A stretch of 64,000 nucleotides of DNA, taken from assembly GCA_019721075.1 (NCBI GenBank), contig JAHEAD010000003.1:62001-126000 (forward strand), written 5' to 3'. Under the pieces are notes generated by a model. That model saw only the letters and a list, made by a program, of their open reading frames with translations, was not told the DNA's origin and ran no database searches. The DNA is from Candidatus Sysuiplasma jiujiangense (GTDB taxonomy: Archaea > Thermoplasmatota > Thermoplasmata > Sysuiplasmatales > Sysuiplasmataceae). The translations under genes were made by a program, and so were the position numbers. Positions 2,312 to 33,884 of this stretch are shown here, piece after piece (positions within the stretch are counted from its first letter, which is position 1; each line of letters starts with the position of its first letter).

Positions 2312-4249
<1,938 letters not shown>

Positions 4250-4258
4250 GTGTTTTAG

Positions 4259-6977: not shown

Positions 6978-7682
6978 TTGCTCAGGGATACTGTTTCAGG
7001 TCTGGAAAAAATAATCAGGAATGACGTTGAGGCGCCGAAGGTTGTCCTTGTAATCGGGCCGCCCGGCTCGATGAAGACATCCTTCTGCTTTTCAGTAATG
7101 TCGAAACATCTTTCCGGAAGCGGCGAAATAGGGCTCTACCTCACGCTTGAGGAGACCACGGAAAGCCATACAAAGAACATGAAGAGTCTGGGAATAGACT
7201 TCGGCCGCAACCTGTTCGTTTCCGACTTCACGGATATCAGGGAACTGGAGCTCGTCGGCGACGATGCGGAAATGGACTACATATCACTGATTGAAAGGCT
7301 GGTAAAAAACTTCAAGCAGAAGCATGGAAAGGCATTCACGATGCTTACCATTGACTCGCTCGGAGCACTGTACTCACTGATGGAGGACGGCGTTTCCCTC
7401 AGGAAGAGCATGTATCACTTTTTCAAGAATCTGAGGGAAATGGGGCTGTTCACGATGCTTATCATGGAAGGGAGCATCGCAGAAGGCAGATTCTATGCGG
7501 GAACCGAAGCGTTCCTGAGTGACGGTGTTGTCTATCTGGGCATGGACAGCAACCGGGGCAAGATCACCAGATTCGTCCAGATTGGTAAAATGAGGGCATG
7601 CGACCACAGCATGGAGAGGCACGCGCTGGAAATCGGAAGAGGTGGTCTGCAGGTACTCGGACCGCTTCTCGGCAATATGTAG
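6978..7682 (+). CDS. RecA/KaiC-like (RAD55-type) ATPase
   Basis: This is a 234-residue single-domain RecA-superfamily ATPase. The Walker A motif GPPGSMKTS (about residues 26-34) has Met where the third Gly usually is; the Walker B strand is TMLTIDS (about 120-126). The C-terminal KMRACDHSMERHALEIGRGG closely follows the KaiC-family pattern of Lys-Met-Arg, His and a final L-x-I strand. The start must be TTG at 6978 or later, because an in-frame TGA immediately precedes it (6975-6977). The next genes on the strand are a coiled-coil/zinc-ribbon protein (from 7883) and a giant membrane protein, and a fused version of the first two is seen at 32238-33884. Function is not known; such proteins act as regulatory ATPases in archaea. 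Confidence 0.8.
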   Translation: MLRDTVSGLEKIIRNDVEAPKVVLVIGPPGSMKTSFCFSVMSKHLSGSGEIGLYLTLEETTESHTKNMKSLGIDFGRNLFVSDFTDIRELELVGDDAEMDYISLIERLVKNFKQKHGKAFTMLTIDSLGALYSLMEDGVSLRKSMYHFFKNLREMGLFTMLIMEGSIAEGRFYAGTEAFLSDGVVYLGMDSNRGKITRFVQIGKMRACDHSMERHALEIGRGGLQVLGPLLGNM

Positions 7683-7870
7683 GCTGATGACGCGAAAGTG
7701 ACGGCATACCGTGACTGAAAAACAGAGACGAAGAGAGTTGTTTGCTTAAACGATAAGCGGATGAAAAGTGCTTAATATAGTCAGTTCGTGTTATGAAACA
7801 GAATGAATAAACATATGTGCTTTCGGATCGTTGACTGGACATCCGGCCTGATGCACGCTTGTTTGTTTCC

Positions 7871-7879
7871 GGAGGAGTG
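7871..7879 (+). promoter_or_regulatory. Strong Shine-Dalgarno site that fixes the 7883 start
   Basis: GGAGGAGTG lies with its GGAGG core 7 bp before ATG 7883. A TTG 24 bp upstream (7859) is in the same frame but would put this site inside the gene, so ATG 7883 is preferred. A promoter-like CTTAATATAG is near 7769-7778. Confidence 0.7.
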
Positions 7880-7882
7880 GTA

Positions 7883-8815
7883 ATGGGTTCAAGTGAAACA
7901 CCTATATGGCAGGTAATCGAAGAAACTGCGACCAAGCTTAAGAAGCAGCACGAAGAGATGAACACCAGGCAGGAGAGTCTGGACAGAAAGGAACAGGAAT
8001 TGAATTCCAAGCAGGGACTGCTTGATGAGAAGGAAAGAGGTCTCAATGCAAAGGAAAGCAGCCTCAACGAACTGCAGTCCGTGCTGACGGGCAGGGAGAG
8101 CAAAATAGCCCAGAAGGAAAATGACATTCATGCAGCAGAGTCGGCTCTGAACACGAAAATAGCGGAAGTGCAGAGCAAGGAAATTGAGCTCAACGGTAAA
8201 GAGAAGCTTATGGCATTCAGAGAGCAGAATCTGGAGGCAAAGGCCTCCGAACTGAATACGCTTGAAAAGGATGTAAAGGAGAAGCAGTCTGCATTGAAGG
8301 GCAAGGAAGACGAACTGCTGAAGCAGGAGCAGGAACTCAAGCAGATAATCGAGCAGGTGGTTGCGAGGAGACAGTCCATTGTCATGCTTGAGGAGACGCT
8401 GAGAAAGGAGCTTCAGAATATGAGACCGGCGGATGCGACACTGCCGAAGGAGCAGGAAGCGCATGTGCGCCAGCAGCAGCCGCAGGCAAGACCTGAACCG
8501 GTTCATGCTGCACCGGATACGAAGAAACTTGCCGAAGACGAAATGTACTGCAGCAACTGCAATGCCATCATAAGCAGGGATGCGGTCATCTGCTACTCAT
8601 GCGGCGCAAAGGTGAACGAGACGGCACAATCCCAGAGTGATCTCGCCGAAGACGAAATGTACTGCAGCAACTGCAATGCCATCATAAGCAGGGATGCGGT
8701 CATCTGCTACTCATGCGGACAGCGAGTTACACCACAGGGGGAAAACGCCAATCACGGGACCCAGAACAGTGCAGGTGATGATTCCAGGAAGATCATAAAA
8801 AAGAAGATCGCCTGA
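7883..8815 (+). CDS. Coiled-coil protein with two C-terminal zinc ribbons
   Basis: This is a 310-residue soluble protein with no recognised enzyme domain. Residues about 15-185 form a long coiled coil of repeated short units rich in KE..L and EL..K. A Pro/Gln-rich linker follows (about 185-210). Two zinc ribbons of the form YCSNCN-x12-CYSCG sit near residues 222-241 and 260-279. The ribbons are an exact tandem duplication at DNA level: 74 identical bases at 8531-8604 and 8645-8718. The tail is basic (RKIIKKKIA). The neighbouring RecA-like ATPase and the giant membrane protein, which has the same type of ribbon in its cytoplasmic tail, suggest an adaptor or scaffold role. That is inference. 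Confidence 0.75.
   Translation: MGSSETPIWQVIEETATKLKKQHEEMNTRQESLDRKEQELNSKQGLLDEKERGLNAKESSLNELQSVLTGRESKIAQKENDIHAAESALNTKIAEVQSKEIELNGKEKLMAFREQNLEAKASELNTLEKDVKEKQSALKGKEDELLKQEQELKQIIEQVVARRQSIVMLEETLRKELQNMRPADATLPKEQEAHVRQQQPQARPEPVHAAPDTKKLAEDEMYCSNCNAIISRDAVICYSCGAKVNETAQSQSDLAEDEMYCSNCNAIISRDAVICYSCGQRVTPQGENANHGTQNSAGDDSRKIIKKKIA
8531..8604 (+). repeat. Direct repeat copy 1 (zinc-ribbon duplication)
   Basis: This 74-bp stretch is identical to 8645-8718. The offset of 114 bp is 38 codons, so the frame is kept. It encodes AEDEMYCSNCNAIISRDAVI followed by the CYSCG half of the ribbon. Complete identity at synonymous positions implies a recent duplication or ongoing gene conversion. 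Confidence 0.95.
8645..8718 (+). repeat. Direct repeat copy 2 (zinc-ribbon duplication)
   Basis: This is the second copy of the 74-bp zinc-ribbon repeat, identical to 8531-8604, inside the same coding region. The 40 bp between the copies encode the linker, which is not duplicated. Confidence 0.95.
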
Positions 8816-8921
8816 ATGCACTGAATGCATTGCCGAAACAAACCCTTTTAATATCCCCTTTTCCGGTATTTTTAAAAACAGCTGCGTCAAACCAGCACCT
8901 GTTTTGGACGCATTTTCGCTC

Positions 8922-8927
8922 TTTTTT
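8922..8927 (+). terminator. Possible T-rich terminator after the coiled-coil gene
   Basis: A run of six T follows the coiled-coil gene by about 105 bp, and further T-rich runs lie at about 8845-8875. Archaeal termination commonly uses T-tracts. No strong hairpin was seen. The call is tentative. Confidence 0.3.
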
Positions 8928-8972
8928 CAGGCAGCGGCAGTTGGGGATTGCTTTGATAATTACAGAAAAGCA

Positions 8973-9006
8973 TTTTTATATCGCACGATAACTCAAATTT
9001 TTTAAA
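8973..9006 (+). promoter_or_regulatory. Promoter of the giant surface protein gene
   Basis: TTTTTATATC at 8973-8982 is a good TATA box 55 bp before ATG 9037. A second AT-rich element (TTTTTTAAAC, about 8997-9006) is about 31 bp before the ATG and could give a leaderless message. The ribosome site before ATG 9037 is weak (GCGGGT). Confidence 0.5.
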
Positions 9007-9036
9007 CTGTTAATCGCGCTTGAAGCGGGTAAAATT

Positions 9037-12000
9037 ATGCAGAGATCCAGAGCAGAACTGATCAGACTTGCGTGCATGTCTGTTGTTGCGCTGTTTGTAA
9101 TGTCCGCAATGTTCGGAGGAATAGGGAATACCCCTGGAGCGAATGCTGCAAGGCCGGATGCCCTTATATCCTCGCAGCAGGGAGGCAATGTGACCGTCGG
9201 AACGGGATACAGCCTCACCAGCTGGAATTTGAGCGGAGGCACCCAGGTAATGCAGGGCAACCTCACGATCAGGGAAGGGGGCGTTGTCAGGCTGTCCAAC
9301 GAAACAATGATGTTCGACGAGTTTGCATCTAGCGGAACCTACCCGGGAGCATCGATATTCCACATCACTGTAGAGGACGGAGGCAGGCTCATAATGAGCC
9401 ATTCGACAGTGACGACCAATCTGCAGCTACTCAACGACATACCGGTGCTGGGCGTATTTGAGAGCAACGGAGCATCAATTCTGATGCAGGACAATTCATC
9501 CTTTGTTTTCCCCGGGCAGTTTGTCGTATACAGCTCAAACTTCACTATGATTGACTCATCGATAAGCGGTTTCAGTGCATCCCAGTTCAACCCCAACTAC
9601 ATCAACGAGAGTGTTTTCCCGCCCAATGTGTTTGCAAATCCTCCGGTGTCTTCGTTCTATTCCGCGAACGTACTGCTTCAAAATTCAAAGATTTACATGT
9701 ATTCACTGCACGGGCCATACAATCAGACTACGGTGTTCGTCGAACACTATCCCTTTGCATCTGACAGCGCACAGAAGAACAGCGTGTCTTACAGCCTTGA
9801 GGCCTTACCCACTTCGGTATTCAGGCAGGCACCCCTTGCCGATACAACAACCAACCAGAACATATTCAATCTCACGGCATTTGACCAGTCAAACTATGTG
9901 GTTCAGGCCGGACATCAGCTTTCGGTGACTAACTTCACGACCGGGGGCCTGAACGAGCCGCTGGGCGCGGTAACGCTTAATGTGGAATACGAAACGAGCG
10001 GAGCAACATCAGGGACACCGGCTACAGTCTACTGGGCATACGGAAACACCACGGATCCTGTGCAGCAGGCTTCACTCATCAATACTGCGACCTACTATGC
10101 TCCGAATGCCAACAACTATTACACCTCCTCCATAACCCTCCCTGGAGGGCTTACAGAAAATGATCTCAGCAGGATAATTGTCTGGATATACGTTTCATCT
10201 GGAACACTGCTTGTCAACAAGCTCTGGTTCCTGATGACTATTAACCAGCCGGCTTACAAGAATATGACAATAGGCGGTGCTTCAAGTTTCACAGCAATTG
10301 ACAGCTTCATCGACGCGAATTTCATAGACAGCGGAGCATTGCATGATGCTATTTCCGTTGCAGACACTGCTCATGCCTATCTCTATGGCGTCACGGTAAA
10401 TCAGTCAGTCACCTCCGGATACACCGGCCCGTTCGTGCCGGCCATAGTGGGACAGATTGCGTCGATGACAGCGAAGGCGGCGACTTTTGGACCTTCAAAC
10501 ACAGCAAGTCCGACGGAATTGAATCTGCTTGACTCCAACACATCCACCTACTACAACATAACCGCTGGAAGCGCTATGCAGACCTATGGAATGAATGTTT
10601 CAGGAGGCGTTTCGCTCAACACACAACTCAAGTCTGCGACACTATATTTGTATACAAACACGGTAACAGCGCAAGAAGTATTGATAGGCCAAATAGGAGA
10701 ACCTATTTCTAATTACGTTTCGACAGGCATTACTATAGGAAGCAACGGAATTGGTCAATATTCTGCGAATCTGAATTCCTTGGGCATAACCAATCTAAAT
10801 GAACTGAAAAACTTGGTTGTCTATATCGACAATAGCGGCGGTGTAACAATAAGCATAAAGGATCTCAGGGTGCAGGCCCAGATTCTGCCCCAGGCATACA
10901 TTTACAGATTTGCGGATGTCACCGTCCACAATGGACAGGGACTCCCTGTAAACAACAGCAGACTGAGTTTCAAATACAGCAGCAGCACCCCAACAAACGT
11001 TTCTGCGGGAACATCCGCAGGATATTATGTGGCACCTCTCAACAACTATCAGATGACGCCGCCTTCATCCGTCCTCTCATATCTTGGAAAAACATCTTCA
11101 AACTACAACGTGACCAACTACTTCGGAAATGCTGTAGTGCCGCTGCTTACAGATCTGATAGATTATTCCACATACCCGGACTCGATGTTTGTCGGAAACT
11201 ATACAATGACTGTCATTTACAATGGAGCTGATTTCGGTTTCTCAATGGCCTTTGAGCCGTTCCCGAATATTACGGCAGCTTCACAGCTTGTCTACTTTAA
11301 TGTGTCCATTCCTGTCACTGTACCGCTCCCGCTCGTTCTGGTGGGAAAGCCATATGTCACACCGTCATTTGTTTACCAGAACCAGACCGGACAGATTACT
11401 TTCAATATCACCGATGACGCTCAGACCGGAATTAATTCCATTACGATAAATGTATCAGACGGAGCGAACGGACAACTCGTTTCGAGCGAAAATGTAGTTA
11501 CATCATTAAGTCCGTTAGAGACCAAAACAATCACTCTTCCATGGACTTTTTCCGCTGCCGGCAACAATTCAATAAGCGTGAATGCCAACCCGAACAAGAC
11601 TGTTCCCGAGTCCAGCTATTCCGGAGACTTCAACTCGACACTCTTCTATGTTGAACCCAATTTACCCGAGCTTGTAGTATCATCTTCGGGAATAACGTTC
11701 AACCCGAGCCCGGCTTTCAGCGGAAAGGCTGTCGTGATAACTGCCACCATACAGAATACGCTTGGAAGAGCGGGAGTCAAAAATCTGACTGTCGGTTTCT
11801 ATTACGGTAACCCGCTCAGCGGCGGAACACTGATCGGCACCGGTATCACCAGCGTGTCAGCAGGCGGAACCAACACCACATCAATAAGCTGGATACCGAC
11901 AACAATAGGCTCAGTGCCAATCTATGTTTACATAGATCCGTCGCAGACAATCGTGCAATACAGCCACGCGGGAAACCTGAATTACAGCGTGTTGCTGATT

Positions 12001-14688
12001 TACCTCTCTGTCGGGCAGCAGGATCTTGTTATAAATGATTCAAATTCAGGACCGTCACAACCCTTCCAGATCATATCATCAATAAACATGTCATCGAACA
12101 TAGTGGTGACACAGAGCGGGTACCTGATGGTCTCAAACGGCGGCATCAACTTCATTGAGTCGTACAGCGGAGAATATGCATTCCTTGTGAATCAGACCGG
12201 AAGGACCGTAATTGAAAATTCACTGATAACCTCAAACTACCTTGTAAACCTGTACGTCTTCGGCAGTGCACAACTGGTCCTCATCAACTCGGTTCTGGGT
12301 CCCAATATCAACGTTGTAACCGGCGGAAGTGCTGCAGTGTGGATTAACAACAGTGCGGTGCAGGGCAGCCTTGTTACAGCAGCTTTCTCGGGTGCTGTCA
12401 TCAACTCATTCAACAGCGTATTCTCGAATCCCATATCACTCGGTTACAGCGAAGTTGCAAATCTTTACAATATCTCGGCACCCTCGGTCAGCGCACAGTC
12501 CGGTGCAGCCGCGTACATATACAGATGGCTGACGGTTGATGTATACGGGCAGTCAGGAACAACAATAGGAGGAGCGCTTGTATCTGTTTACACATTTGCA
12601 AACCTCACCGAACCGCACGGTACGCTGTTCTCGCAGGGCTACAGCAACTCAACGGGTGCGGTCGTGTTTGCCGGCCTGTCTGACATAATCAACTCGCACG
12701 GAGACACATACAGGGGAGACTATGTTGTAAACACAAGCTATGTGAATGCAGGCACCTGGTATGCTCCAAACGAGACAATATCACTCGCTCACTACTCAAT
12801 ACCGTTGATCCAGCAGAATTCAATGCTGAGAACAGTTCTTTTCATAAAACTGCCTGATCTTGAAATAAGCTCACAGAACATATTCGTAACGCCGTCGCTC
12901 GTGGTTGAAGAGAGCACGGTGAACATAACTGCACTGGTTTACAACATCGGATACGCTGCAGTTACACAGAATTTCACCGTAGAGTTCGGCATATCAGGCA
13001 ACAACTACAACACAGTCATAGATCAGACGGCAGTAGCGTCCGTCTCGCAGCCCCTGAGCGTCAGCAGCTCCATTCCGCTGCCGGTGATTGCAGAATGGGC
13101 CGTACCTCAACTGTCTGGAAATGTTACCGTGACAGTCAATGTAAATCCTGCCAACGCAACGGGAGTCAGGGCAGTTTCCGAAATAAGCTATACGAACAAT
13201 ATCGCGCAGACAGCTGTTGATGTCTATTCTCTCCCGTACCTGTCTCCGACAAGCATGACCGCATCGGGACCACTGCAGGAGGAGACGAACGTCACATTCA
13301 ATGTCACCGTCCGCAACACAGGGCAGCTGCCGGCAGATAACGTCCCTCTGACAATACTCGAGGGACCATCCGTCGGAAACATAACCACGGCTGTTGCCAA
13401 CACGACAATCCCTGTGATAGCCGCAGACTCTTCGCTGAATGTGGCGGTTGTCTGGACGGCTCCGGCACTTCCGAGCGGTGTTAAGCAGGAGACAATGCTC
13501 TTCCTTGCTGTGGTGAATCCGAATGAAACGATAAAGGAGACAAGTTATACCCAGGACATACTGTCCGCACCGCTTTCCATAAACATCACGATAGCAAAGG
13601 TGAATGCCGCGGTGTTGATTTCGAGCAGCTCGGTAAAAGCCGGAACATACATCGTTCTGACAGTAACCGTCACTTCCCAGGTGACACACAAGCCGATGAA
13701 GTCATTCCCTGTGAACATTGAGCTCTACAATATCAGGGGCCAGCCGCAGTCATCCACGACATTCAGCGGGACGACGAACTCCAACGGCGTCATGATTGCA
13801 AGAATATTCCTGCCCGCATCCCAGACACAGGGGGCATACCACTTCGAAGTGTTTTCCGGCGGCCAGTTCGTGAGCTCTTCACAGTCGTTTAATGTCATCT
13901 CACCGCAGACTTCGACAGGCATACCGCTGCTTTACTGGCTGCTTATCGGCATTGTCATAATAGCCGGATTTGTAGGCGTATCGCTATATCTCTACAGATA
14001 CGGTCTGGCAAGGGTTGTAGAATGCGGCAATTGCGGCGCTTTCATACCCGAGACCTCAAAGAAGTGCTCCTACTGTGGTGTGGAATTCGAGACAGGCACC
14101 GCGAAATGCAGCAACTGCAATTCCTGGATACCTGCCAATTCGAAGGACTGCCCGATATGCGGCGTCAGATTCGTGGACGAGGGAGTGGCTGACAAAGAGG
14201 ACGACACGAACGCCGAAATGAGAAAGGGATACATGGAATTCACCGACAAGTTCAAGGCGCAGGCAAGGGCAGAAATGGGAGGCAAATATTCGGACAAGGC
14301 ATTCCTTTCCTGGTGGAAGAAACAGCCCACTTACCTTTCGTTCGAGGACTGGCTGGCAAGGCAGCAGGAAATGAAGAAGGCAAAAATGATCCAGTGTCCT
14401 TCCTGCGGCGAAATGAATCCGGAGAATTCCATCGAATGCATGAAGTGCGGAACTGTGCTCAAACCTGCAAAGGGCGAGACACCGAAGGAAAAGCCGCCCG
14501 AGACACCGCCGCCGCAGAACATCGAGGGAAAGGCGCCGCCACAGGAGCCCAGGAGAATAGTCGTTCCGAAGCGGATAATAAGGAAGATAGAGGACAGGCC
14601 ACAGGATAAGCCACAACAGCAGGAAAGCCAGCAAACCGACGGTTCCGCAGGCGGGGATCAGCAGAGCAGCAGCGGCGGCAGCCAGTAA
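9037..14688 (+). CDS. Giant secreted/membrane protein: beta-helix and CARDB-like repeats outside, zinc ribbons inside
   Basis: This 1,883-residue protein has an N-terminal signal sequence (about 5-38) and a very long Ser/Thr/Asn-rich exterior. Residues about 60-320 and 1005-1170 have short repeated strands like parallel beta-helices. At least four CARDB-like modules begin near residues 768, 877, 1271 and 1397, with signatures such as PELVVSSSGITFNPSP. One transmembrane helix (about 1627-1652) is followed by a cytoplasmic tail with two adjacent ribbons (CGNCGAF..CSYCG and CSNCNSW..CPICG), a Trp-rich helical segment (SWWKKQPTYLSFEDW), a third ribbon (CPSCGEM..CMKCG) and a Pro/Gln-rich end. Surface adhesion or sensing is likely; the intracellular ribbons suggest contact with cytoplasmic partners such as the protein at 7883. 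Confidence 0.8.
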   Translation: MQRSRAELIRLACMSVVALFVMSAMFGGIGNTPGANAARPDALISSQQGGNVTVGTGYSLTSWNLSGGTQVMQGNLTIREGGVVRLSNETMMFDEFASSGTYPGASIFHITVEDGGRLIMSHSTVTTNLQLLNDIPVLGVFESNGASILMQDNSSFVFPGQFVVYSSNFTMIDSSISGFSASQFNPNYINESVFPPNVFANPPVSSFYSANVLLQNSKIYMYSLHGPYNQTTVFVEHYPFASDSAQKNSVSYSLEALPTSVFRQAPLADTTTNQNIFNLTAFDQSNYVVQAGHQLSVTNFTTGGLNEPLGAVTLNVEYETSGATSGTPATVYWAYGNTTDPVQQASLINTATYYAPNANNYYTSSITLPGGLTENDLSRIIVWIYVSSGTLLVNKLWFLMTINQPAYKNMTIGGASSFTAIDSFIDANFIDSGALHDAISVADTAHAYLYGVTVNQSVTSGYTGPFVPAIVGQIASMTAKAATFGPSNTASPTELNLLDSNTSTYYNITAGSAMQTYGMNVSGGVSLNTQLKSATLYLYTNTVTAQEVLIGQIGEPISNYVSTGITIGSNGIGQYSANLNSLGITNLNELKNLVVYIDNSGGVTISIKDLRVQAQILPQAYIYRFADVTVHNGQGLPVNNSRLSFKYSSSTPTNVSAGTSAGYYVAPLNNYQMTPPSSVLSYLGKTSSNYNVTNYFGNAVVPLLTDLIDYSTYPDSMFVGNYTMTVIYNGADFGFSMAFEPFPNITAASQLVYFNVSIPVTVPLPLVLVGKPYVTPSFVYQNQTGQITFNITDDAQTGINSITINVSDGANGQLVSSENVVTSLSPLETKTITLPWTFSAAGNNSISVNANPNKTVPESSYSGDFNSTLFYVEPNLPELVVSSSGITFNPSPAFSGKAVVITATIQNTLGRAGVKNLTVGFYYGNPLSGGTLIGTGITSVSAGGTNTTSISWIPTTIGSVPIYVYIDPSQTIVQYSHAGNLNYSVLLIYLSVGQQDLVINDSNSGPSQPFQIISSINMSSNIVVTQSGYLMVSNGGINFIESYSGEYAFLVNQTGRTVIENSLITSNYLVNLYVFGSAQLVLINSVLGPNINVVTGGSAAVWINNSAVQGSLVTAAFSGAVINSFNSVFSNPISLGYSEVANLYNISAPSVSAQSGAAAYIYRWLTVDVYGQSGTTIGGALVSVYTFANLTEPHGTLFSQGYSNSTGAVVFAGLSDIINSHGDTYRGDYVVNTSYVNAGTWYAPNETISLAHYSIPLIQQNSMLRTVLFIKLPDLEISSQNIFVTPSLVVEESTVNITALVYNIGYAAVTQNFTVEFGISGNNYNTVIDQTAVASVSQPLSVSSSIPLPVIAEWAVPQLSGNVTVTVNVNPANATGVRAVSEISYTNNIAQTAVDVYSLPYLSPTSMTASGPLQEETNVTFNVTVRNTGQLPADNVPLTILEGPSVGNITTAVANTTIPVIAADSSLNVAVVWTAPALPSGVKQETMLFLAVVNPNETIKETSYTQDILSAPLSINITIAKVNAAVLISSSSVKAGTYIVLTVTVTSQVTHKPMKSFPVNIELYNIRGQPQSSTTFSGTTNSNGVMIARIFLPASQTQGAYHFEVFSGGQFVSSSQSFNVISPQTSTGIPLLYWLLIGIVIIAGFVGVSLYLYRYGLARVVECGNCGAFIPETSKKCSYCGVEFETGTAKCSNCNSWIPANSKDCPICGVRFVDEGVADKEDDTNAEMRKGYMEFTDKFKAQARAEMGGKYSDKAFLSWWKKQPTYLSFEDWLARQQEMKKAKMIQCPSCGEMNPENSIECMKCGTVLKPAKGETPKEKPPETPPPQNIEGKAPPQEPRRIVVPKRIIRKIEDRPQDKPQQQESQQTDGSAGGDQQSSSGGSQ

Positions 14689-15518: not shown

Positions 15519-15661
15519 AGCTGTCTGAATGTTTGCGACCGGGAAAGACTGTTTTGATGGATGACGTGCGGGGCACAGAAATACAGAATAAAACATGATA
15601 ACCAGAGCATCACAATTATATAACCAACTGAAGGCTTTTTAACCCCGGAACAGTGCAGTTG

Positions 15662-16594
15662 ATGCCCATTATAGAGAGAGGGAAGACAGCCATAAGGCCA
15701 TCGAAGAAGATGGCTGACAGGGAGGGAGTGGCCTCTGTAGTCGGAACAATACTGGCGTTACTTGTTTTTCTCTCAATACTTGGAATATTCACAAACCACT
15801 ATGTGCCTTCGATGATGGCCGGCAACGAGCACAACCATGACAGCCAGGTGATAACGCAGATATCGGAGCTCAAACAGGCGATAGACAACATGATGATGTA
15901 TTACATCAACTCCCACTCGAGCACTCTTTCAGCCTACACGCCGCTTACGCTTGGCTCATCCGGCGTGCCGATGTTTGCTACCGGGACCCAGGGACAGCTG
16001 GGCATAGTGCCTGAAGCTGGGATGCAGGATCCTTCATTCTCGGTTGTATTCAATTACACTGCTGACGGCCACAGTTTCTCTGAGAATTCAACGTCTGGAG
16101 GGGGTGTCGTCGTGAACATACCCAACAGGTACTATATCCCTCAGTCAATCCTCTATGAGAATGATGCTGTTATCCTAGGGCAGAGCAGCGGTCAGGTAAT
16201 GCTCGCGAATCCAGGCTTCAATGTCACTAGCAGCGGCAATACAGTTAGTATGCGTTTGCTGCAGTTGTCTGTGGAGACACCGACATCATCAAATGTCACT
16301 TATTCCGGAACAAATACCGTGGGCCTTACTTCGCAGCTGCTTGAATTCTCGCAGGGGACATACAGCGTGAATGGCTCCATCAGAATGCAGATAGTTACGC
16401 CATTCGCCTCAGCATGGGAGAATTTCATAAATTCAGCATTCAGACAGGCAGGACTGAGCCAGGGGCATGGATTGAAGGTGAGTGTCGGAAATCTTAGCTT
16501 TCAGAATTACATTCTGACAGTAACAGTGACACCCAGTAAGGGATTTCAGATTACACTTTCTACCGCGATTGTGAGTATCGCTGCGGAGGAGTGA
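15662..16594 (+). CDS. Pilin-like secreted protein at the head of a pilus/secretion operon
   Basis: This is a protein of about 310 residues with a short basic N-terminus (RPSKKMADREG) then a hydrophobic segment GVASVVGTILALLVFLSILG (about 23-42). That resembles archaeal type IV pilin and class III signal peptides, which are cut just before the hydrophobic helix. The rest is extracellular-type sequence rich in Ser, Thr, Asn and Gly. A GTG at 15653 is also in frame, and an internal ATG (MADREG) would bring the start close to the expected cleavage site. The ATPase gene follows directly, so this is probably a structural subunit or minor pilin of the encoded apparatus. Confidence 0.7.
   Translation: MPIIERGKTAIRPSKKMADREGVASVVGTILALLVFLSILGIFTNHYVPSMMAGNEHNHDSQVITQISELKQAIDNMMMYYINSHSSTLSAYTPLTLGSSGVPMFATGTQGQLGIVPEAGMQDPSFSVVFNYTADGHSFSENSTSGGGVVVNIPNRYYIPQSILYENDAVILGQSSGQVMLANPGFNVTSSGNTVSMRLLQLSVETPTSSNVTYSGTNTVGLTSQLLEFSQGTYSVNGSIRMQIVTPFASAWENFINSAFRQAGLSQGHGLKVSVGNLSFQNYILTVTVTPSKGFQITLSTAIVSIAAEE
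16585..16590 (+). promoter_or_regulatory. Shine-Dalgarno site of secretion ATPase 1
   Basis: GGAGGA lies at the end of the pilin-like gene, 6 bp before ATG 16597. This spacing favours ATG 16597 over the in-frame GTG 16591, which directly abuts the site. Confidence 0.65.
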
Positions 16595-16596
16595 AA

Positions 16597-18330
16597 ATGG
16601 CATCAACCGCAGAAACTTCACACGAGAGCGAGACACAGAGAAGGAGCATCCCATCACTCATAGGTGAAAGCTACAAACGCTTCCTTTCAAAGAGAGGGAA
16701 CAGGCGTGTCAAGATCAAAATGCCCAGGGATGAGGTTGACAGGAAGATGGACTGGGCTGAGGGCAAGGGCTCTCCGTACACCGTTATACCCCCCCTCCTC
16801 AAGCCGACTATGGAAGTTGTCGAAATATACCCTGTCAGGAAAATGTATTCCTATATCAGGGTCACATACGACAGCGAATCCAGCGAATACCTTCTTGAAG
16901 CAATCGAACCGCAGCTGACAGAGACCGAGACGAAACTTCTCTCACTGCTGAAGAATTCACTGCAGCGGACGCTCGATTATGAATACAAGCAGCTCTCGCA
17001 GATGGACAGGAAGGAATACCTGAAGCGCAGCATTGAGAGTTTCCTGAGCACAAGGGGCCTTAACCTGACACCCATTACAAAGGACAAGCTTGCATATTAC
17101 ATCATAAGGGACTTCATCGGATACGGTCCTGTGGACATTTTTATAAACGACGTCTTCGGAGAAGACGTGAGCTGTGATGGAGTGGATGTTCCGATATTTG
17201 TATTCCACAAGAAGTACGAGAGCGTCAAAACAAATGTTGTCTTCAGGGATGAAGAACAGCTGAACTCATTTGTTGTCTACATAGGCCAGAAATGCGGTAA
17301 GCAGATAAGCGTTTCAAATCCCATACTTGACGGCACCACCCCTGAAGGTCACAGACTTCAGGCGACCTATGCGAGAGAGGTGACAAGCAGGGGATCCTCA
17401 TTCACCTTCAGGCTGTTCAAGGAAAAGCCGTTCACTCCGGTGGACATGATAAACTACGGGACTGCGTCCCCAGAAATGATAGCATACCTCTGGATGAGCG
17501 TGGAAGCCGGGGAATCCGCAATGATAATAGGAGGAACGGGAAACGGCAAAACTTCCACACTCAACGCGATCTCCCTCTTCATTCCGCCGAGTGCAAAGAT
17601 CGTCACGATGGAGGACACGAGGGAAATAAATCTTCCCCATGAAAACTGGATACCTGGAAGCACAAGATCCGGCGTGGGAGAGAAAAACGCCCAGGGGAAG
17701 GCGCCCGGGGAAATAGACATGTTCGACCTTGTGAGGGCAGCTCTCAGACAGAGACCTAACTACATCATTGTCGGTGAAGTCAGGGGAAAGGAAGCCTACA
17801 CGATGTTTCAGGCAATGGCAACCGGGCACACGACCTACTCGACCATGCATGCAGACAGCGTCAAACTGATGATCAACAGGCTGGAGAATCCGCCAATCAA
17901 CATACCGAGGATACTGCTAACCGCGCTCAGGACGGTTGTGGTACAGCAGCAGGTCAGGGTCGGAAAGGAAAATGCAAGGCGCATCCGGAATATCGTTGAA
18001 CTCATAGGATTCGAGCCGGGCACCAACGAAATCATAACCAACGTTGTCTTTGAATGGGATCAGGTCAAAGATTATTTCAACTTCAAGGGGCACAGTGCCC
18101 TGTTTGACAAACTCATGGATCTGAAAAACTGGACCCACGAGGAGCTGAACGACGAGTTCAACAGAAGGATCGACATAGTGCGGTACATGGTTCTGAGAGA
18201 AATGAACAATCACATGGATATCTGGGCCCTCATCAATAAATATTACAGGGATCAGGAAGGAACGATGCAGATGGTGCGGTCGACACTCAGCAGGACTGTT
18301 AAAGTTGCGGAGGATGCGGTAGTTGTCTAG
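16597..18330 (+). CDS. Type IV pilus/Tad-type secretion ATPase, paralogue 1
   Basis: This is a 577-residue hexameric motor ATPase of the FlaI/TadA/GspE superfamily. An N-terminal domain (about 1-290) precedes the ATPase core: Walker A GGTGNGKTS (about 311-319), the Asp-box region MEDTREINLPHENW (about 337-350), Walker B IIVGEVRGKEA (about 389-399) and the His box GHTTYSTMHAD (about 409-419). It powers assembly of pilus-like filaments at the membrane platform. It lies 2 bp after the pilin-like gene and overlaps the next gene, so it is in the operon. The paralogue at 20317 shares the whole layout, but the two differ across the N-terminus and in the loop after the Asp box (SGVGEKNAQGKAPGEID here). 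Confidence 0.92.
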   Translation: MASTAETSHESETQRRSIPSLIGESYKRFLSKRGNRRVKIKMPRDEVDRKMDWAEGKGSPYTVIPPLLKPTMEVVEIYPVRKMYSYIRVTYDSESSEYLLEAIEPQLTETETKLLSLLKNSLQRTLDYEYKQLSQMDRKEYLKRSIESFLSTRGLNLTPITKDKLAYYIIRDFIGYGPVDIFINDVFGEDVSCDGVDVPIFVFHKKYESVKTNVVFRDEEQLNSFVVYIGQKCGKQISVSNPILDGTTPEGHRLQATYAREVTSRGSSFTFRLFKEKPFTPVDMINYGTASPEMIAYLWMSVEAGESAMIIGGTGNGKTSTLNAISLFIPPSAKIVTMEDTREINLPHENWIPGSTRSGVGEKNAQGKAPGEIDMFDLVRAALRQRPNYIIVGEVRGKEAYTMFQAMATGHTTYSTMHADSVKLMINRLENPPINIPRILLTALRTVVVQQQVRVGKENARRIRNIVELIGFEPGTNEIITNVVFEWDQVKDYFNFKGHSALFDKLMDLKNWTHEELNDEFNRRIDIVRYMVLREMNNHMDIWALINKYYRDQEGTMQMVRSTLSRTVKVAEDAVVV

Positions 18331-19399
18331 TCAGCAGGATGAGTCAAACCTGTTCAGCAGGTTCGAGGGTGTCAAGAAGAGCTACCTGGGAACAAAAACA
18401 GTAAAGTCAAAGAGGATGCTGGAAGGGCCGCATCCCATCAGGCTTCCTCATGGAACTGTCCCCGACTATGTGAAACTGACGCCCTACCAGCAGTTCTGCT
18501 GGAGAACGATGCACAGGTTTGTCGAGGCACGATTCAGGCAGAACCAGTCGCTTGAGGACAGCCTTATAAAGGCGCATATCAAGATCAGGCCCGAGGAGTA
18601 CACGGCGTACGTATGGATGTCCACAATCATCGTTTTCATTATCGGTATGGCCGTGGGCGTTGTATTCGGCGGTGTCATACTCGCGCTGCTCAACCAGATT
18701 GTTGTTCTCAGAATCTCTGCCCTGATTCTTCCCGCACTGCTGCCTCCGATAATCACTTATTTTGTCCTCAATTCCCTCCCGTCCTCAAAGGCAAACACCA
18801 GGGGAAGGGATATCAACAGGCACATCGGGAGCGCAATGAGCTTCATCTCCGCGCTTGCATCCGCGGATGTCAACATTGATGTAATATTCAGCGAGCTCGC
18901 AAAACAGCCAATTTACGGAGAGGTACAGAAGGAAGCCGAGTGGATTACTAGGGATACAACACTTCTGGGTGTGGACATACTGACAGCAATAAGAAATGCA
19001 GCCGCCAGGACACCCTCGACAAAATTCCAGGACTTCCTGCAGGGTGTTGTGACAACCGCCACTTCCGGAGGCCAGCTGAAGCCTTATTTCCTCGCAAAGG
19101 CCGAACAGTTCGAAAAGGAGGACAAACTCAACACAAAGAGGGATATGGAAACACTCGGCCTCTTTGCAGAGACATTTGTGACTGTTGTTGTGGCATTCCC
19201 CCTCTTCCTTGTCGTCATTATGGCGATAATGGCGATAGTCAACGGCGGCGGTTCCGCGGCACCTGTTGCAGTCCTGTTCGGAACACCGCTGACCTCCACC
19301 GTGCTCCTGCTGTTTGTCGTTGTGCTCCTGATGATACCGGCATCACAGGCAGGCTTCATCTTCTTTGTTTGGAACCTTAGTAAGGAGGCCGCACAATGA
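18323..19399 (+). CDS. TadC/T2SF-type membrane platform protein 1
   Basis: This is a 358-residue polytopic membrane protein with a soluble N-terminal part (about 1-90). Hydrophobic pairs lie at about 94-150 and 285-355, with a cytoplasmic T2SF-type loop between them (about 160-280, including SAMSFISALASADVNIDVIF). Such proteins form the inner-membrane platform that the secretion ATPase turns or moves. The start is TTG 18323, overlapping the ATPase stop by 8 bp; GGAGG at 18309-18313 supports it. The nearest ATG (18339) is out of frame. The last bases overlap the next gene as ATGA, indicating translational coupling. Confidence 0.88.
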   Translation: MSSQQDESNLFSRFEGVKKSYLGTKTVKSKRMLEGPHPIRLPHGTVPDYVKLTPYQQFCWRTMHRFVEARFRQNQSLEDSLIKAHIKIRPEEYTAYVWMSTIIVFIIGMAVGVVFGGVILALLNQIVVLRISALILPALLPPIITYFVLNSLPSSKANTRGRDINRHIGSAMSFISALASADVNIDVIFSELAKQPIYGEVQKEAEWITRDTTLLGVDILTAIRNAAARTPSTKFQDFLQGVVTTATSGGQLKPYFLAKAEQFEKEDKLNTKRDMETLGLFAETFVTVVVAFPLFLVVIMAIMAIVNGGGSAAPVAVLFGTPLTSTVLLLFVVVLLMIPASQAGFIFFVWNLSKEAAQ

Positions 19400-20313
19400 A
19401 CGCAACAGTCTCATCTTACGTTGATCTCAAGCCGCTGATGAACGTAAGGAAGGATCTGGGCAAGCAGATACTCGCTGTCTCGGTAGCAACAATGTTCATT
19501 TTCCTGCTCATCGGCATCGTAGGTGCCATGAACAGCCAGAATTACTTGGGATTCGGTTTTCTTGACTGGATTGTGCTGGCGCTGGCAGTAATGACCGGAC
19601 CGTACGGTATCTATGCAAGCATGCAGGTCAGGAAAATCGCACTGATTGAAGAAAGGGTGCCGGATTTCCTCAGGGATGTTGCGGAGGCTGGACGATTCGG
19701 AATGACACTGGCGCAGGCCATCCTCATTGCATCTTCGGGAAAGTACGGAAAACTCACGCCTGAGATCAGAAGGATGTCCGCACAGATTGACTGGGGGGTT
19801 CCGGCGACAGAGGCAATCAGGATGTTCTCCGAAAGGATGAACAGCGCACTGATAACAAGAATTTCAAACATAATCATCAAGGCAAGTGACGCGGGAGGGA
19901 ATGTTTCAGATGTACTGAACATGGTTGCGCACGATGCAAGAGAGAGGATACTCGACAGAAAGGAACGGACAATTGCAATGAGCACATACATGGTTGTAAT
20001 CTACATATCATTTGCAGTGTTCCTTGCAACCATATTCATACTCGAGGCAACATTCATACCCGAGATAAAGAAGGCAGGCACGCAGCTCCAGAATGCCGGG
20101 GGGGTCCTCACCACAAGCGGCATATCGCAGGTCAATGTCCTGGCAATAGGACCGGTAACACTCGCGTTCTACATAGCAGTCATTGTTCATGCAACAGGTG
20201 ACGGTATTATGGCTGGAGTAATACAGGACGGGAAGATTACGAACGGAATGAGGCACAGCGCCATCATGCTTGTAATCGGGCTTGTCTTCATGCATTTCCT
20301 GCTGGGGGTCTGA
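19396..20313 (+). CDS. TadC/T2SF-type membrane platform protein 2
   Basis: This is a 305-residue membrane protein with hydrophobic segments at about 25-47, 53-74, 198-217 and 245-303. Between them is a T2SF-type cytoplasmic region with VPDFLRDVAEAGRFGMTLAQAI and a second GGNVSDVLNMVAHDARERI stretch. It is a second, shorter platform protein. Archaeal pilus loci often carry two such proteins, as in the Methanococcus Epd system (established knowledge). Its ATG overlaps the stop of the preceding gene (ATGA), and the second ATPase starts 3 bp after its stop. The four genes are clearly one transcription unit. Confidence 0.88.
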   Translation: MNATVSSYVDLKPLMNVRKDLGKQILAVSVATMFIFLLIGIVGAMNSQNYLGFGFLDWIVLALAVMTGPYGIYASMQVRKIALIEERVPDFLRDVAEAGRFGMTLAQAILIASSGKYGKLTPEIRRMSAQIDWGVPATEAIRMFSERMNSALITRISNIIIKASDAGGNVSDVLNMVAHDARERILDRKERTIAMSTYMVVIYISFAVFLATIFILEATFIPEIKKAGTQLQNAGGVLTTSGISQVNVLAIGPVTLAFYIAVIVHATGDGIMAGVIQDGKITNGMRHSAIMLVIGLVFMHFLLGV

Positions 20314-20316
20314 GAA

Positions 20317-22041
20317 ATGGTAAGCGCGGAAGAGCAGAAACAGCAGGAAGAGGAACAGCAGAAAAGACACATGGGAATGAAATCCAGATACATCCGTTTC
20401 CTGAATTCCCTCGGAAACAAGCCCGTGCGTGTCAGGATAACCGAGGAAGAATTTAAGGAAGGACGCAACGAGAAAATAACCCCGGTTCCGCTGATTAACG
20501 AGAAGACGGTGGAAGAGGTGGAGCTCATACCTCTGAAGGAGCCCTATTCTTACGCACGCATAAAGTACGACACCATACCGAATGAATACATATACGAGCT
20601 CATAGAACCCCCGCTATCCCTGGATGAGCGCAGCGTACTGACTAAACTGAAGGAAGCGCTGGTCTCGACGCTCAACTTGTCCGAACAGGATGAAAAGGAG
20701 GAGAGGGAAAAGGTTCTCAAAAAGGCAACCCTTGAAGTAATGCGTGCCCTCGATATTTCACTCAACCCCATATCAATGGAGAGAATATTCTATTACCTGA
20801 GCAGGGATTTGGTCGGACTGGGCACAATAGAGGGCGTTATGCTCGACAGCAACGTGGAGGACGTTTCCTGCGACGGCGTCAACATACCGCTGTTCATTTT
20901 CCACAGGAAATACGGCTCAATAAAGTCGAACATCAGATTTGAGAAGGAGACCGACCTCGATGCATTTGTTGTCTGGCTTGCACAGCGCTCTGGGAAGACC
21001 ATATCGGTGGCAAACCCGATGCTGGACGCCACGCTTCCAGACGGCTCAAGGCTGAATGCGACACTGGGAAAGCATGTTACAAAGAAGGGCTCCTCGTTTA
21101 CAATCAGGCGGTTCAAGGACGACCCGTTCACACCGATAGACCTCGTTCGCTTCAAGACAATGAGCATCGAGATGATGGCCTATCTCTGGCTCTGTATAGA
21201 ATATGGCAGCTCGATGATGGTCTGCGGAGGTACAGCAAGCGGCAAGACCACTACACTCAATGCTGTTCTGCTCTTCATACCGCCGCAGATGAAGATAATA
21301 AGCATCGAGGACACCAGGGAGCTTAACCTTCCGCACGAGAACTGGATTGCATCCGTGACAAGGGAAGGTTTTGGCGGCAAGTCTTCAGGCCAGATGGCCG
21401 GAGCTGTTGACATGTTCGACCTGCTGACCGCAGCAATGAGACAGAGACCCCAGTACCTGATGGTGGGAGAAGTCAGGGGCAAGGAGGCGTATGTGGTGTT
21501 TCAGGCAATGGCCACAGGCACAATAGCCTATTCGACATTCCATGCCGACGATCTGAGTGCAATGATACACAGGATGGAAAGTGAGCCGATAAATCTCCCG
21601 AGGTCACTCATGACGGCACTGAACATAATGCTCCTCCAGGGGCAGGTGAAGGTCGGCACCAAGATGACAAGAAGGGTCAAGTCGCTCACCGAGATCGTCG
21701 GTCTTGATCCGGAAACAAACGAGATCATATACAACTCGGTGTTTAACTGGAATCCGGCCGATGACCGCTTCCACTTCTCAGGGCACAGCTACATATTTGA
21801 AAAGATAAGATTGTCCAGAGGATGGTCCCCGAGGCAGATGGAGAACGAGATGCGCAGAAGGGTTCTCGTCCTCGAATACATGAGGAAGAAGAACTACAAC
21901 AACTACAAGAAGGTCGCATCCCTGATATCTGCATACTACAGGGACCCCGACAGGACAACAGAAATGATTGAGAAGGAATTGACTGATGTGGGCCAGCCGG
22001 GCGGCCAGGGACAGCCCGGGCAGCCCACAACAAAGGCATAG
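20317..22041 (+). CDS. Type IV pilus/Tad-type secretion ATPase, paralogue 2
   Basis: This is a 574-residue second motor ATPase of the same family as 16597-18330. The core has Walker A GGTASGKTT (about 304-312), the Asp-box region IEDTRELNLPHENW (about 329-342), Walker B YLMVGEVRGKEA (about 380-391) and the His box GTIAYSTFHAD (about 402-412). The N-terminus is Gln/Glu-rich and highly charged, and the C-terminus ends in a Gly/Pro/Gln tail (QPGGQGQPGQPTT). It is 3 bp downstream of platform protein 2. Two complete, divergent ATPases in one archaeal pilus operon could mean separate extension and retraction motors or a mixed hexamer. Neither can be proved from sequence. Confidence 0.92.
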   Translation: MVSAEEQKQQEEEQQKRHMGMKSRYIRFLNSLGNKPVRVRITEEEFKEGRNEKITPVPLINEKTVEEVELIPLKEPYSYARIKYDTIPNEYIYELIEPPLSLDERSVLTKLKEALVSTLNLSEQDEKEEREKVLKKATLEVMRALDISLNPISMERIFYYLSRDLVGLGTIEGVMLDSNVEDVSCDGVNIPLFIFHRKYGSIKSNIRFEKETDLDAFVVWLAQRSGKTISVANPMLDATLPDGSRLNATLGKHVTKKGSSFTIRRFKDDPFTPIDLVRFKTMSIEMMAYLWLCIEYGSSMMVCGGTASGKTTTLNAVLLFIPPQMKIISIEDTRELNLPHENWIASVTREGFGGKSSGQMAGAVDMFDLLTAAMRQRPQYLMVGEVRGKEAYVVFQAMATGTIAYSTFHADDLSAMIHRMESEPINLPRSLMTALNIMLLQGQVKVGTKMTRRVKSLTEIVGLDPETNEIIYNSVFNWNPADDRFHFSGHSYIFEKIRLSRGWSPRQMENEMRRRVLVLEYMRKKNYNNYKKVASLISAYYRDPDRTTEMIEKELTDVGQPGGQGQPGQPTTKA

Positions 22042-25561: not shown

Positions 25562-25740
25562 GAAACTCAACACCGGTCTGGTTACAATTACCCTCAGAAC
25601 TGAATATAAAACAGAGCGACATGAGTTTCATAGTTTGATAACATCGGCTGGCATCGGCTGAGGCAACGGTCTGGCCGGTTAAACAGTTTCAATGCATGCA
25701 ATGTAACGAATATCGTAATTTCCTGTCTGCGGCATAATCG

Positions 25741-31191: not shown

Positions 31192-31785
31192 GTATCGCTT
31201 CGCAGGGGAGCAAAACAAAAGATACTTTATAACGTGCTATTACAGCTCAATAATGAACATTTATGGCGAATGCACATTCAGAACAGCCGAATTCGAGGCA
31301 GCGGAAGCGTTTCGCAAACTTACGAAAAACGAAATTAAACAACTGTTTTGCAACGCGTGTTAATGTAGTTCCCTTCCGGACACTGTTATTTCAGCCCATG
31401 TCTTGCAGGCCATGTCCGTATCCGGTTAATGCCTGATTTCTACAGCTACATACAGCTATGTTCATGGAAGTGATGTCCGCGGGGAGAGGTCAATGCCTCA
31501 AAACATGATCGGCAACGGTGTACCGGCTGCACGCTGCAAAGCTGGATGACACTCCCTTCAGGGAGTACATATGCCGGATGACATTCAAATGCCAATTTAC
31601 GATAATCATGGGTTTGGACGGAAATCAGAAATTAAGCAGACCCTGTCGATGGCCAAATGGATTTATAAGCGGGGACATGTCTATGACAATATACTGCCGC
31701 AGGAAAAAGGAAGACAGATGCCGGTAATCGTGCACTCTGACGGTTGCCGGAGTCTGCTTCAATTTCAAAGGCGGAGGGATATTTC
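31192..31785. other. Intergenic stretch without a supported gene
   Basis: This about 590-bp stretch lies between the SSB promoter and the gene at 31786. Several short frames exist, but none has a recognisable family or good start signal. It has TATA-like sequences near 31230 (ACTTTATAACG) and a small perfect hairpin at 31551-31566 (ACTCCC-TTCA-GGGAGT). An uncharacterised small RNA or leader is possible but unsupported. Confidence 0.5.
31773..31778 (+). promoter_or_regulatory. Shine-Dalgarno site that fixes the 31786 start
   Basis: GGAGGG lies 7 bp before ATG 31786. The in-frame start 14 codons earlier (31744) would include this site and adds a segment unlike the rest, so ATG 31786 is preferred. 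Confidence 0.6.
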
Positions 31786-32226
31786 ATGTTGGGAATAAAG
31801 GGCTGGGAAGTCAATACACTTGAAGCAAAGAGATTTTCTCAGCTTGGTGAAAAGATGGTAAATGTCAGGATAGACCACAACAGTACCGTGACGGCGATGA
31901 ATGCAGTAAGCAACACGGATGTCTCAATCGAATTCCGTTTTACAGCCAATTATACCGGAATGGGCTTCATCAAAATCGAAGGCAAGATAACAGTCAGCGA
32001 TGATTCCAGATCACCGGAATCGGTCGTGAAGGAATGGAGACAGACGGGCAACATGCCGACAGACTTTGCCAATGCTGTCCATAATGCGGTCATGGCCAAC
32101 TGCATCCCCACAGCGCTGCTGGTATCAAGGGATTTGCAGTTGCCGCCGCCTGTTCCGCTGCCGCAGGTTGACGTGGGACAGCAGAAACAGGGAAACAAGT
32201 CGGTCAAGGGGATGGAAGTGGCATAA
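31786..32226 (+). CDS. Conserved-looking archaeal protein of unknown function
   Basis: This is a 146-residue soluble protein I do not recognise. It shows a series of amphipathic strands (KMVNVRIDHNSTVTAMN, DVSIEFRFTANYTGMGFIKI, EGKITVSDD), then a helical segment (PESVVKEWRQTGNMPTDFAN, with following residues to about 118) and a Pro/Gln-rich tail (LPPPVPLPQVDVGQQKQ). The strand pattern with a long closing helix is reminiscent of SecB-like folds, but this is a weak impression. The start is set by GGAGGG 7 bp upstream. It converges on the zinc ribbon-coiled coil-ATPase gene, whose stop is 11 bp away. Confidence 0.6.
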   Translation: MLGIKGWEVNTLEAKRFSQLGEKMVNVRIDHNSTVTAMNAVSNTDVSIEFRFTANYTGMGFIKIEGKITVSDDSRSPESVVKEWRQTGNMPTDFANAVHNAVMANCIPTALLVSRDLQLPPPVPLPQVDVGQQKQGNKSVKGMEVA

Positions 32227-32237
32227 ACAGAAGGCGC

Positions 32238-33884
32238 TTATTTAATGTGGCCCAGAGTAAAGGACCCTATCGTCAGTGAGCGCTTTGAAGCCGTGTATTT
32301 TATCTTATCCCTTGTCTGTGTTTCGCATATACCCTGAATTGAGATGAAGTTGTTCTGCCCGTCCGTCATGAATTCCATGACACCGTCCATTATCGAACTG
32401 ATTATCTGGACATCCTGATCGTTCATTATCCCCTTCTCCACACTGTACATACCGACGCTTCTGTCCTTCTTCCTCTTTGCGACGAAAGGCCTCATCAGCC
32501 TGAAAATGCTCCTGACGTCGTAGCTCGCACTCAGGCTCGAAATTGATCTGAAAACAAGACGGTAGCTCTTCTTCTCGACAATGTCGTTTATCGTCTTGAG
32601 GTGCTCCTCGACCATTGTGTTTATGCGCTCAATATCGGCACCATTCTCCAGGTATGCGGCGTTCTTGACTGATGTATTGTCTCCGATGGAACGGGAATAT
32701 GCATCTATGTAGAAAACCAGACCGAGTTCCTCATACTGGTCGTAGCCATTGATAACAACAGACATCTCCTCCCTTATCTCTGCAACTGTCTTGTCTGTTG
32801 TCACCCAGATCAGCGGTATTCCCTTCCTGAGTCCCTCAGCGGCAAAGGAGTTCATCGCAATTTCCTTCCCGACGAATGACGGACCGAAGATGATAACCTG
32901 GGCGCTTACCGGCAACCCGCCAAGGAGCAGATCGTCCAGACGCGGAGTTCCTGTCTTGACCTTCTCCTGCCTCAATTCGGAAACTGCAAGTTCCTCCATC
33001 GCCACGATCTCCTTTCCTATGAGAGCGTTTTCCCGGTTCCTGATTTCTGCTTCCTTCTGGGAAAGATATTTTTCCGTGGCCCTCAGTTTTTCTTCCTTTT
33101 CTTTTATCTGCTCTCTGAGATCCTCAAGGGCCTTCTTCAATTCCACCTCCTTCATCGAGCCGAGCTGCTGCTTCTTTATTTCTATCTGCCTCAATTGCTC
33201 CTTCATCAGCTCCTCCCGGTGCTGCAGATCCACCTCATGCCTGTTGAATTCTTCCTCCTTGAAGCGCAGCTTTTCCTCGAGTTCCCTGGATTTTTCATCC
33301 TTGAACTTCATTTCGTTTCTCAATTCGTCAATGGTCTTCTCGTAGTCCTTCAGTTTATTTTCATAAACAACCCTGTCTCTGACGAGTTCCTTGACTTTAT
33401 CCTCGAGATTACCAGAACCCATGACAGATACTGCTTCTATCGCCTTTATTTCAGTCCTCAGACTGTTCACTGTCGATTCGGCCTCTGAAAGTTTCTTCCG
33501 GAGCTGAATAACTTCGCTTTCATCCACGGAATTGGGCAAGTCGGCAGTTGACTCATTCTTATGTTCTGTTTGCGTACCTTCGGATGCCGGAGTAGCCGGA
33601 GTGCCGGTTTCATCTTCGACAACTGAAACAAAGTGTTCCGAATTGCCCGAGAGCCACTGCAGTATGGGTTCGAGATCCTCCTCGCCGTTTTCAGTGACAG
33701 TGGGAGGGTACACTCCAAAACTCGCACTATCATCTCCATTCCGGTGAAATGAGGAATCGCCCAGTGGCCCGCCCGTGCTGATGGAGACTCTATTGCCGCA
33801 GTACGTGCAGGAGCCTGACTGATCGAGCTCATTGCCGCATACGCTGCACTTTCCACGTGTCTGCAGACCGCCTTCTCCGTTCAA
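32238..33884 (-). CDS. Zinc ribbon - coiled coil - RecA/KaiC-like ATPase fusion protein
   Basis: This is a 548-residue soluble protein with three parts. Residues about 10-33 form a zinc ribbon (KCSVCGNE..SCTYCGNR). Residues about 120-310 form a long coiled coil (many E/K/L heptads, e.g. KEVELKKALEDLREQIKEKE). Residues about 315-548 form a RecA/KaiC-like domain starting TGTPRLDDLLLGGLP. The Walker A is degenerate (GPSFVGKEIAM), so ATP binding may be altered. The domain set equals that of the separate adjacent proteins at 6978 and 7883. The start is TTG 33884; no ATG precedes the zinc ribbon. Function is unknown; a structural or regulatory ATPase role is inferred. Confidence 0.78.
   Translation of the reverse strand: MNGEGGLQTRGKCSVCGNELDQSGSCTYCGNRVSISTGGPLGDSSFHRNGDDSASFGVYPPTVTENGEEDLEPILQWLSGNSEHFVSVVEDETGTPATPASEGTQTEHKNESTADLPNSVDESEVIQLRKKLSEAESTVNSLRTEIKAIEAVSVMGSGNLEDKVKELVRDRVVYENKLKDYEKTIDELRNEMKFKDEKSRELEEKLRFKEEEFNRHEVDLQHREELMKEQLRQIEIKKQQLGSMKEVELKKALEDLREQIKEKEEKLRATEKYLSQKEAEIRNRENALIGKEIVAMEELAVSELRQEKVKTGTPRLDDLLLGGLPVSAQVIIFGPSFVGKEIAMNSFAAEGLRKGIPLIWVTTDKTVAEIREEMSVVINGYDQYEELGLVFYIDAYSRSIGDNTSVKNAAYLENGADIERINTMVEEHLKTINDIVEKKSYRLVFRSISSLSASYDVRSIFRLMRPFVAKRKKDRSVGMYSVEKGIMNDQDVQIISSIMDGVMEFMTDGQNNFISIQGICETQTRDKIKYTASKRSLTIGSFTLGHIK

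Follow-up and report, generated by a model that had tools for sequence, protein, structure and literature searches.

A conserved gene module beside a two-ATPase type IV pilus cluster in Thermoplasmata points to a possible undescribed device for pilus control or anchoring

The window analyzed here, a stretch of 64,000 nucleotides from a Sysuiplasma-like Thermoplasmata archaeon whose genome was assembled from metagenomic data, carries three consecutive genes on one strand, encoding a KaiC-family ATPase (A), a coiled-coil/zinc-ribbon protein (B), and a giant envelope protein (C), and raises the question of what these proteins might do together. A preliminary description made from the letters alone had grouped them with a fourth, fused-looking protein (F) and proposed a complex in which an extracellular protein communicates through zinc ribbons with a RecA-like ATPase. 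All four proteins were found where that description had placed them and with the architecture it gave, F lying on the minus strand (Table 1). The answer that we propose is that A, B, C, and F, with a small protein S, may form an accessory module that regulates and anchors a type IV pilus having two motor ATPases and a split platform, a reading to which we assign even chances. The conserved module beside the pilus cluster points to an undescribed device by which a hair-like appendage might be controlled or anchored; "undescribed" is limited to a partial literature search, in which no report of A-B-C-F together with pili was found.

The gene order was compared with that of relatives, mostly draft assemblies whose genes were called with a simple longest-open-reading-frame script; families are labeled f1 to f31, loci L, and genomes G (G000 being the window's own). 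The genes for A and C lay at most 20 kilobases (kb) apart on the same strand in 35 of the 36 genomes that carry both on one contig, representing 12 families. The order A-B-C was read directly in nine families (f1, f3, f14, f18, f19, f20, f21, f29, and f30), while for f23, f24, and f26 the A-C distance alone was measured; in genome G090 of f24 (L103), C lies upstream of A. B stands directly 3' of A in nearly all loci read, and its start at 7883 is backed by orthologues with the N-terminus M(T)S..TPIWQVIEE.

The same comparison tied C to the pilus. C and pilus ATPase 2 were at most 12 kb apart in all 58 genomes that have both on one contig, covering at least 18 families, and were convergent in 50 of them; a further 44 genomes with both genes carry them on different contigs, which is uninformative where the assembly is fragmented. 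The pilus cluster comes after C in the window and is convergent with C in most other families; the window's family has the pilus genes turned around with respect to C. F belongs to the same surroundings, since it lay at most 20 kb from C in 21 of the 27 genomes having both on one contig (f1, f3, f6, f20, f29, and f30), always on the opposite strand, and 16 to 29 kb from C in the window's family (G000, G002, and G004). Parts or all of a superlocus of the form (gyrA) A B C / ATPase2 F2 F1 ATPase1 pilin / S / F were recovered in L085-L088, L125-L128, L141, and L142, and in L141 and L142 it stands in one piece. A and B are thus joined to F by synteny around the pilus cluster, a connection that the preliminary description had not made. 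That description had named, as findings that would speak against its complex, a gene order confined to this genome or two ATPases from unrelated families with no shared neighbors; instead, the order extends well beyond this genome, and A and F have neighbors in common, A-B and F both being syntenic with the pilus cluster.

Presence was scored over 201 genomes of the class Thermoplasmata with a completeness of at least 85%, using search thresholds that were not uniform (1e-130, 1e-20, 1e-10, and 1e-60 across searches). A was present in 69 of these genomes, S in 84, and the C tail in 116, while 135 had matches to pilus ATPase 2; the RecA-like domain of F has relatives in 136, a second, more distant paralogue group being counted in. 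A pilus was found in 67 of the 69 genomes with A, in 112 of the 116 with C, and in 81 of the 84 with S; C accompanied A in 64 of 69, and C and the pilus were both missing in 62 of the 201. The distributions nest, the pilus being the widest, C narrower, and A the narrowest, as expected of accessory parts of one machine. These figures also bear on a self-standing sensory complex, in which extracellular C would signal through its zinc ribbons to the RecA-like ATPase without any tie to a pilus. The conserved A-B-C order speaks for such a complex, as does the combination in C of ectodomain, transmembrane (TM) helix, and zinc-ribbon tail; however, C adjoins a pilus ATPase wherever both lie on one contig, and very few genomes without a pilus have A or C, so that we consider the complex distinctly unlikely.

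We then considered A itself. It scored 116.3 bits on Pfam PF06745 (KaiC superfamily), above the gathering cut-off of 26.6, and all 28 A orthologues matched this model. The KaiC superfamily is defined by a Walker A Lys, a catalytic Glu pair, a Walker B Asp, and a KMR finger. In the alignment of the 28 orthologues, K33, E58-E59, D126 (Walker B), and K204-M205-R206 of A were invariant. The P-loops of A and F had been described as unusual, and the quoted letters were correct; GPPGSMKTS of A is nearly invariant among orthologues and is not a defective P-loop, as A retains its K and T together with the Glu pair, Walker B Asp, and KMR finger. A is no circadian two-domain KaiC (51.2 bits on TIGR02655, cut-off 546), being a single domain, and it falls outside the ArlH family (ArlH model, 19.8 bits versus a cut-off of 215; FlaH, 23.4 versus 194). 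Orthologues scoring above 230 bits were found in 36 of 60 sampled relatives, and the A of Candidatus Sysuiplasma superficiale is 88% identical to that of the window. Three KaiC-like loci cluster elsewhere in the same genome (G000:C8:84567-87198; L004, L008, and L010). Upstream of A and divergent from it, families f2, f11, f14, f16, f18, and f21 carry another protein, D, which has some three zinc ribbons and, at its C-terminus, a long helical stretch (e.g., L059:7181-8650 and L080:7787-9319), of which a probable homologue exists on another contig of the window's genome (G000:C5:105532-106947; L145). D was considered as an orthologue of F and rejected, as the two show no homology; D is a separate family.

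Several observations weigh against the pilus-module reading. A pilus occurs without A in 68 genomes, A-B stands away from C and the pilus in f7, the C neighborhoods read in f9 (L096-L098) are without pilus genes, and locus L058 has A without B. As the cut-off of the ArlH model is not reached, A is proposed to work like ArlH, not to be ArlH. The co-occurrence tests take no account of shared ancestry, and their Fisher values, which ignore relatedness, are not to be taken as probabilities. Moreover, gyrB-gyrA lies directly upstream of A in the window (2321-6895), A-B is found beside gyrA in at least seven families (f1, f3, f12, f19, f20, f29, and f30), and f12 has gyrA-A-B without C (L073). Together with the RecA fold of A, this gyrase neighborhood would fit an A-B module acting on the chromosome or on DNA topology, with gyrB-gyrA-A-B as the real operon and C as a chance neighbor. 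Yet A-B-C occurs without gyrase in f14, f18, and f21, nearly all pilus-free genomes are without A, and the best family matches of A are all KaiC, none of them DNA recombinases, which leaves this explanation very unlikely.

C has its cytoplasmic tail, not its ectodomain, as its best-conserved part: the tail is 32 to 57% identical to all relatives outside the window's family, compared with 22 to 32%, over often partial alignments, for the ectodomain. The three zinc ribbons behind the C-terminal TM helix that the preliminary description had reported were confirmed; the layout of the tail is based on an alignment and an AlphaFold model. In this model, the predicted local distance difference test score (pLDDT) was 78 to 87 for the four-helix part and 62 overall, and a fold search with the tail returned nothing significant, mostly short zinc fingers. 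C-tail proteins of 1109 to 1243 amino acids (aa) stand away from the pilus genes in f9 (L096-L098), in genomes that have a pilus ATPase. Another very large protein of the window (47128-51444, minus strand; 1438 aa) has a signal-like N-terminus.

B also carries zinc ribbons, two near-identical C-terminal ones that match Pfam Zn_ribbon_3 at 9.7e-12. The likeness of its CSNCN ribbon to one of C was borne out in the window's close relatives only; in other families the patterns differ, being CPxCGTMISxDAxMCYACG in B and CSxCxAWIPxxxxxCPxCG in C. A different feature is common to B and C, namely, a motif of the type [VIL]-x-KK-[VIL]-x-KK, which 28 of 38 C carry in their last 110 residues, versus 8 of 525 other proteins. 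The same strict pattern occurs in the last 40 residues of 18 of 36 B versus 5 of 525 other proteins, and most of the remaining B end in a looser KKxxKKxx form. Outside the C family, proteins with the motif in their last 60 residues are mostly B. These counts overstate the weight of the motif because the pattern was written after the sequences had been seen. As a sequence likeness, the motif lends indirect support to a contact of B with C or of both with a common partner.

The conserved tail and the common motif also bear on whether A and B might instead regulate the expression of pilus and surface genes as a KaiC-type signal hub, C being a co-encoded adhesin or surface-layer (S-layer)-like protein with no part in a common complex. 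KaiC family ATPases have been proposed as regulators of archaeal type IV pili and are known to control gas vesicle expression, and S-layer-like proteins commonly adjoin type IV pilus loci (PMC4858521, here and below in excerpt); A, moreover, is soluble and by itself without a membrane link. However, a plain adhesin would not need a C-terminal motif shared with B, nor is the conservation of C centered on its ectodomain, and we regard regulation of this kind as unlikely.

F had been read as the fused counterpart of A plus B, in the manner of a Rosetta stone pair. This was rejected: a search of the genome with A at E<=1e-3 did not recover F but did recover seven other KaiC-like loci, which are thus nearer to A, the zinc ribbon of F is at the opposite end, and its ATPase is degenerate. 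Full-length F members have WLxG motifs, a coiled coil, and a RecA-like domain with GP-x-x-x-GKE from which the Walker B Asp is gone, the Walker B strand carrying an FRSIS-type sequence; about half of those read have the N-terminal zinc ribbon. In every F with a pattern-found P-loop except that of L143 (GKY), the P-loop Lys is followed by Glu, not by Thr or Ser. As the family keeps GP-x-x-x-GKE, GPSFVGKE is a conserved degenerate P-loop, in agreement with the earlier impression of an unusual one, and F is, as judged from its sequence, a conserved pseudo-ATPase and not an active KaiC-like ATPase. A second F-like protein of the same genome (L002:802-2667; G000:C14) is 52% identical to F across the coiled coil and the RecA part; where F has its zinc ribbon, this protein has an unrelated domain at the N-terminus.

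S is arranged tail to tail with F in the window and in relatives, and this holds also at several loci where the two are no longer with the pilus cluster. It has an invariant EG and LP-P-P-P and usually ends in MEVA. Searches of Pfam and PDB found no relative of S, and NCBIfam gave no significant match. The appearance of the sequence had suggested a SecB-like chaperone, an idea to which these searches lent no support. The single-sequence model of S had a pLDDT of 46 and no significant fold match.

For the pilus-module reading we can outline how the parts might work; every physical contact, the formation of a hexamer, and the switch and anchoring roles are ones that we infer. C would be a membrane anchor next to the pilus, with its long extracellular arm in the envelope and its zinc-ribbon/helical tail in the cytoplasm. 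B, which is soluble, would act as a cytoplasmic scaffold binding a KaiC-like hexamer of A and the tail of C, or a partner common to both. A, its active site intact, could serve as an ArlH-like, ATP-dependent switch acting on the pilus ATPases, and F, a pseudo-ATPase with a coiled coil, as a second, non-hydrolyzing scaffold subunit. It is conceivable, if rather doubtful, that surface contact or the state of the envelope sets pilus extension and retraction by the two motor ATPases through the C ribbons, B, and the A ring, together with F.

Table 1. Features of the window assigned to the putative module and to the neighboring pilus cluster
Feature	Position	Strand	Basis
A: single-domain KaiC-family ATPase, active site intact	6978..7682	+	Pfam KaiC 1.8e-33; 28-orthologue alignment
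B: coiled coil, N-terminal xIWxVIEE motif, two C-terminal zinc ribbons, basic-hydrophobic end RKIIKKKIA	7883..8815	+	
C: signal peptide, CARDB ectodomain, single C-terminal TM helix, cytoplasmic tail; 1883 aa	9037..14688	+	
C tail: TM helix, double zinc ribbon, four-helix WW..QPTY domain, third zinc ribbon, disordered VPKRIIRK end	13873..14685	+	
Pilin-like secreted protein, hydrophobic N-terminus GVASVVGTILALLVFLSILGIF	15653..16594	+	
Pilus ATPase 1 (T2SSE, PilB3-like)	16591..18330	+	T2SSE and FlaI-type model matches
Platform protein, N-terminal half (T2SSF)	18323..19399	+	covers 5-242 of ArlJ model NF004704
Platform protein, C-terminal half (T2SSF)	19396..20313	+	covers 268-543 of ArlJ model NF004704
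Pilus ATPase 2	20317..22041	+	FlaI-type model matches
S: conserved ~145 aa protein, convergent with F	31744..32226	+	
F: N-terminal zinc ribbon, WLxG motif, coiled coil, RecA-like pseudo-ATPase (GPSFVGKE)	32238..33884	-	

Within the pilus cluster, the two platform genes cover successive parts of the ArlJ model, which is 555 positions long. As a candidate for the class III signal pilin of a CdiP-type machine, the pilin-like protein has the hydrophobic N-terminus but gave a weak, sub-threshold DUF7289 match (24.2 bits versus a cut-off of 27), and a pilin-like protein is found in the equivalent position in other loci. Further along, a 650-aa protein on the minus strand (23621-25573) has a pilin-like N-terminus, SGVSEIIGDIL, and no NCBIfam match, and is possibly a further pilus component.

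Taken together, A, B, C, and F plus S are class-wide candidate partners for a two-ATPase pilus. The model proposes how pili may be anchored and regulated in the class, including members without a crystalline S-layer, and it attaches a process to S and to the helical domain of the C tail, for neither of which a family match was found.

Among known systems, the CdiP pilus of Cuniculiplasma divulgatum has two T2SSE-type ATPases in its machinery operon and a platform split over two genes, and the reason for its having two motor ATPases is called enigmatic by its discoverers (PMC12448462, in excerpt). The window resembles it at 16591-22041 in gene content; however, the excerpted description of CdiP names no KaiC-like ATPase, coiled-coil/zinc-ribbon protein, ribbon-tailed envelope protein, or RecA pseudo-ATPase (PMC12448462). 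The pilus locus of Aciduliprofundum boonei likewise combines two distinct secretion ATPases with one pilin gene, as in the window, while an accessory A-B-C-F module is not described in the excerpt (PMC4858521). KaiC-like ATPases as such are known neighbors of archaeal type IV pilus loci (PMC4858521). B resembles HP0958 (FlgZ), a coiled-coil and zinc-ribbon protein associated with a filament machine, and arCOG07564, a coiled-coil protein of archaeal type IV pilus loci (PMC4858521), but its two ribbons are of the DZR type and its end carries KKxxKK, and the likeness is one of architecture. The archaellum offers another comparison. Its KaiC-like ArlH, for which a switch through autophosphorylation has been proposed, interacts with the ArlX/ArlCDE ring as well as with ArlI, the motor ATPase (PMC8978795). 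No sequence relation was found between B or C and ArlX or ArlCDE. A scores far under the ArlH cut-off, keeps the KaiC-type Glu pair, and adjoins a pilus instead of an archaellum, yet both systems place a single-domain KaiC-like ATPase by a type IV pilus-type motor together with a separate scaffold protein.

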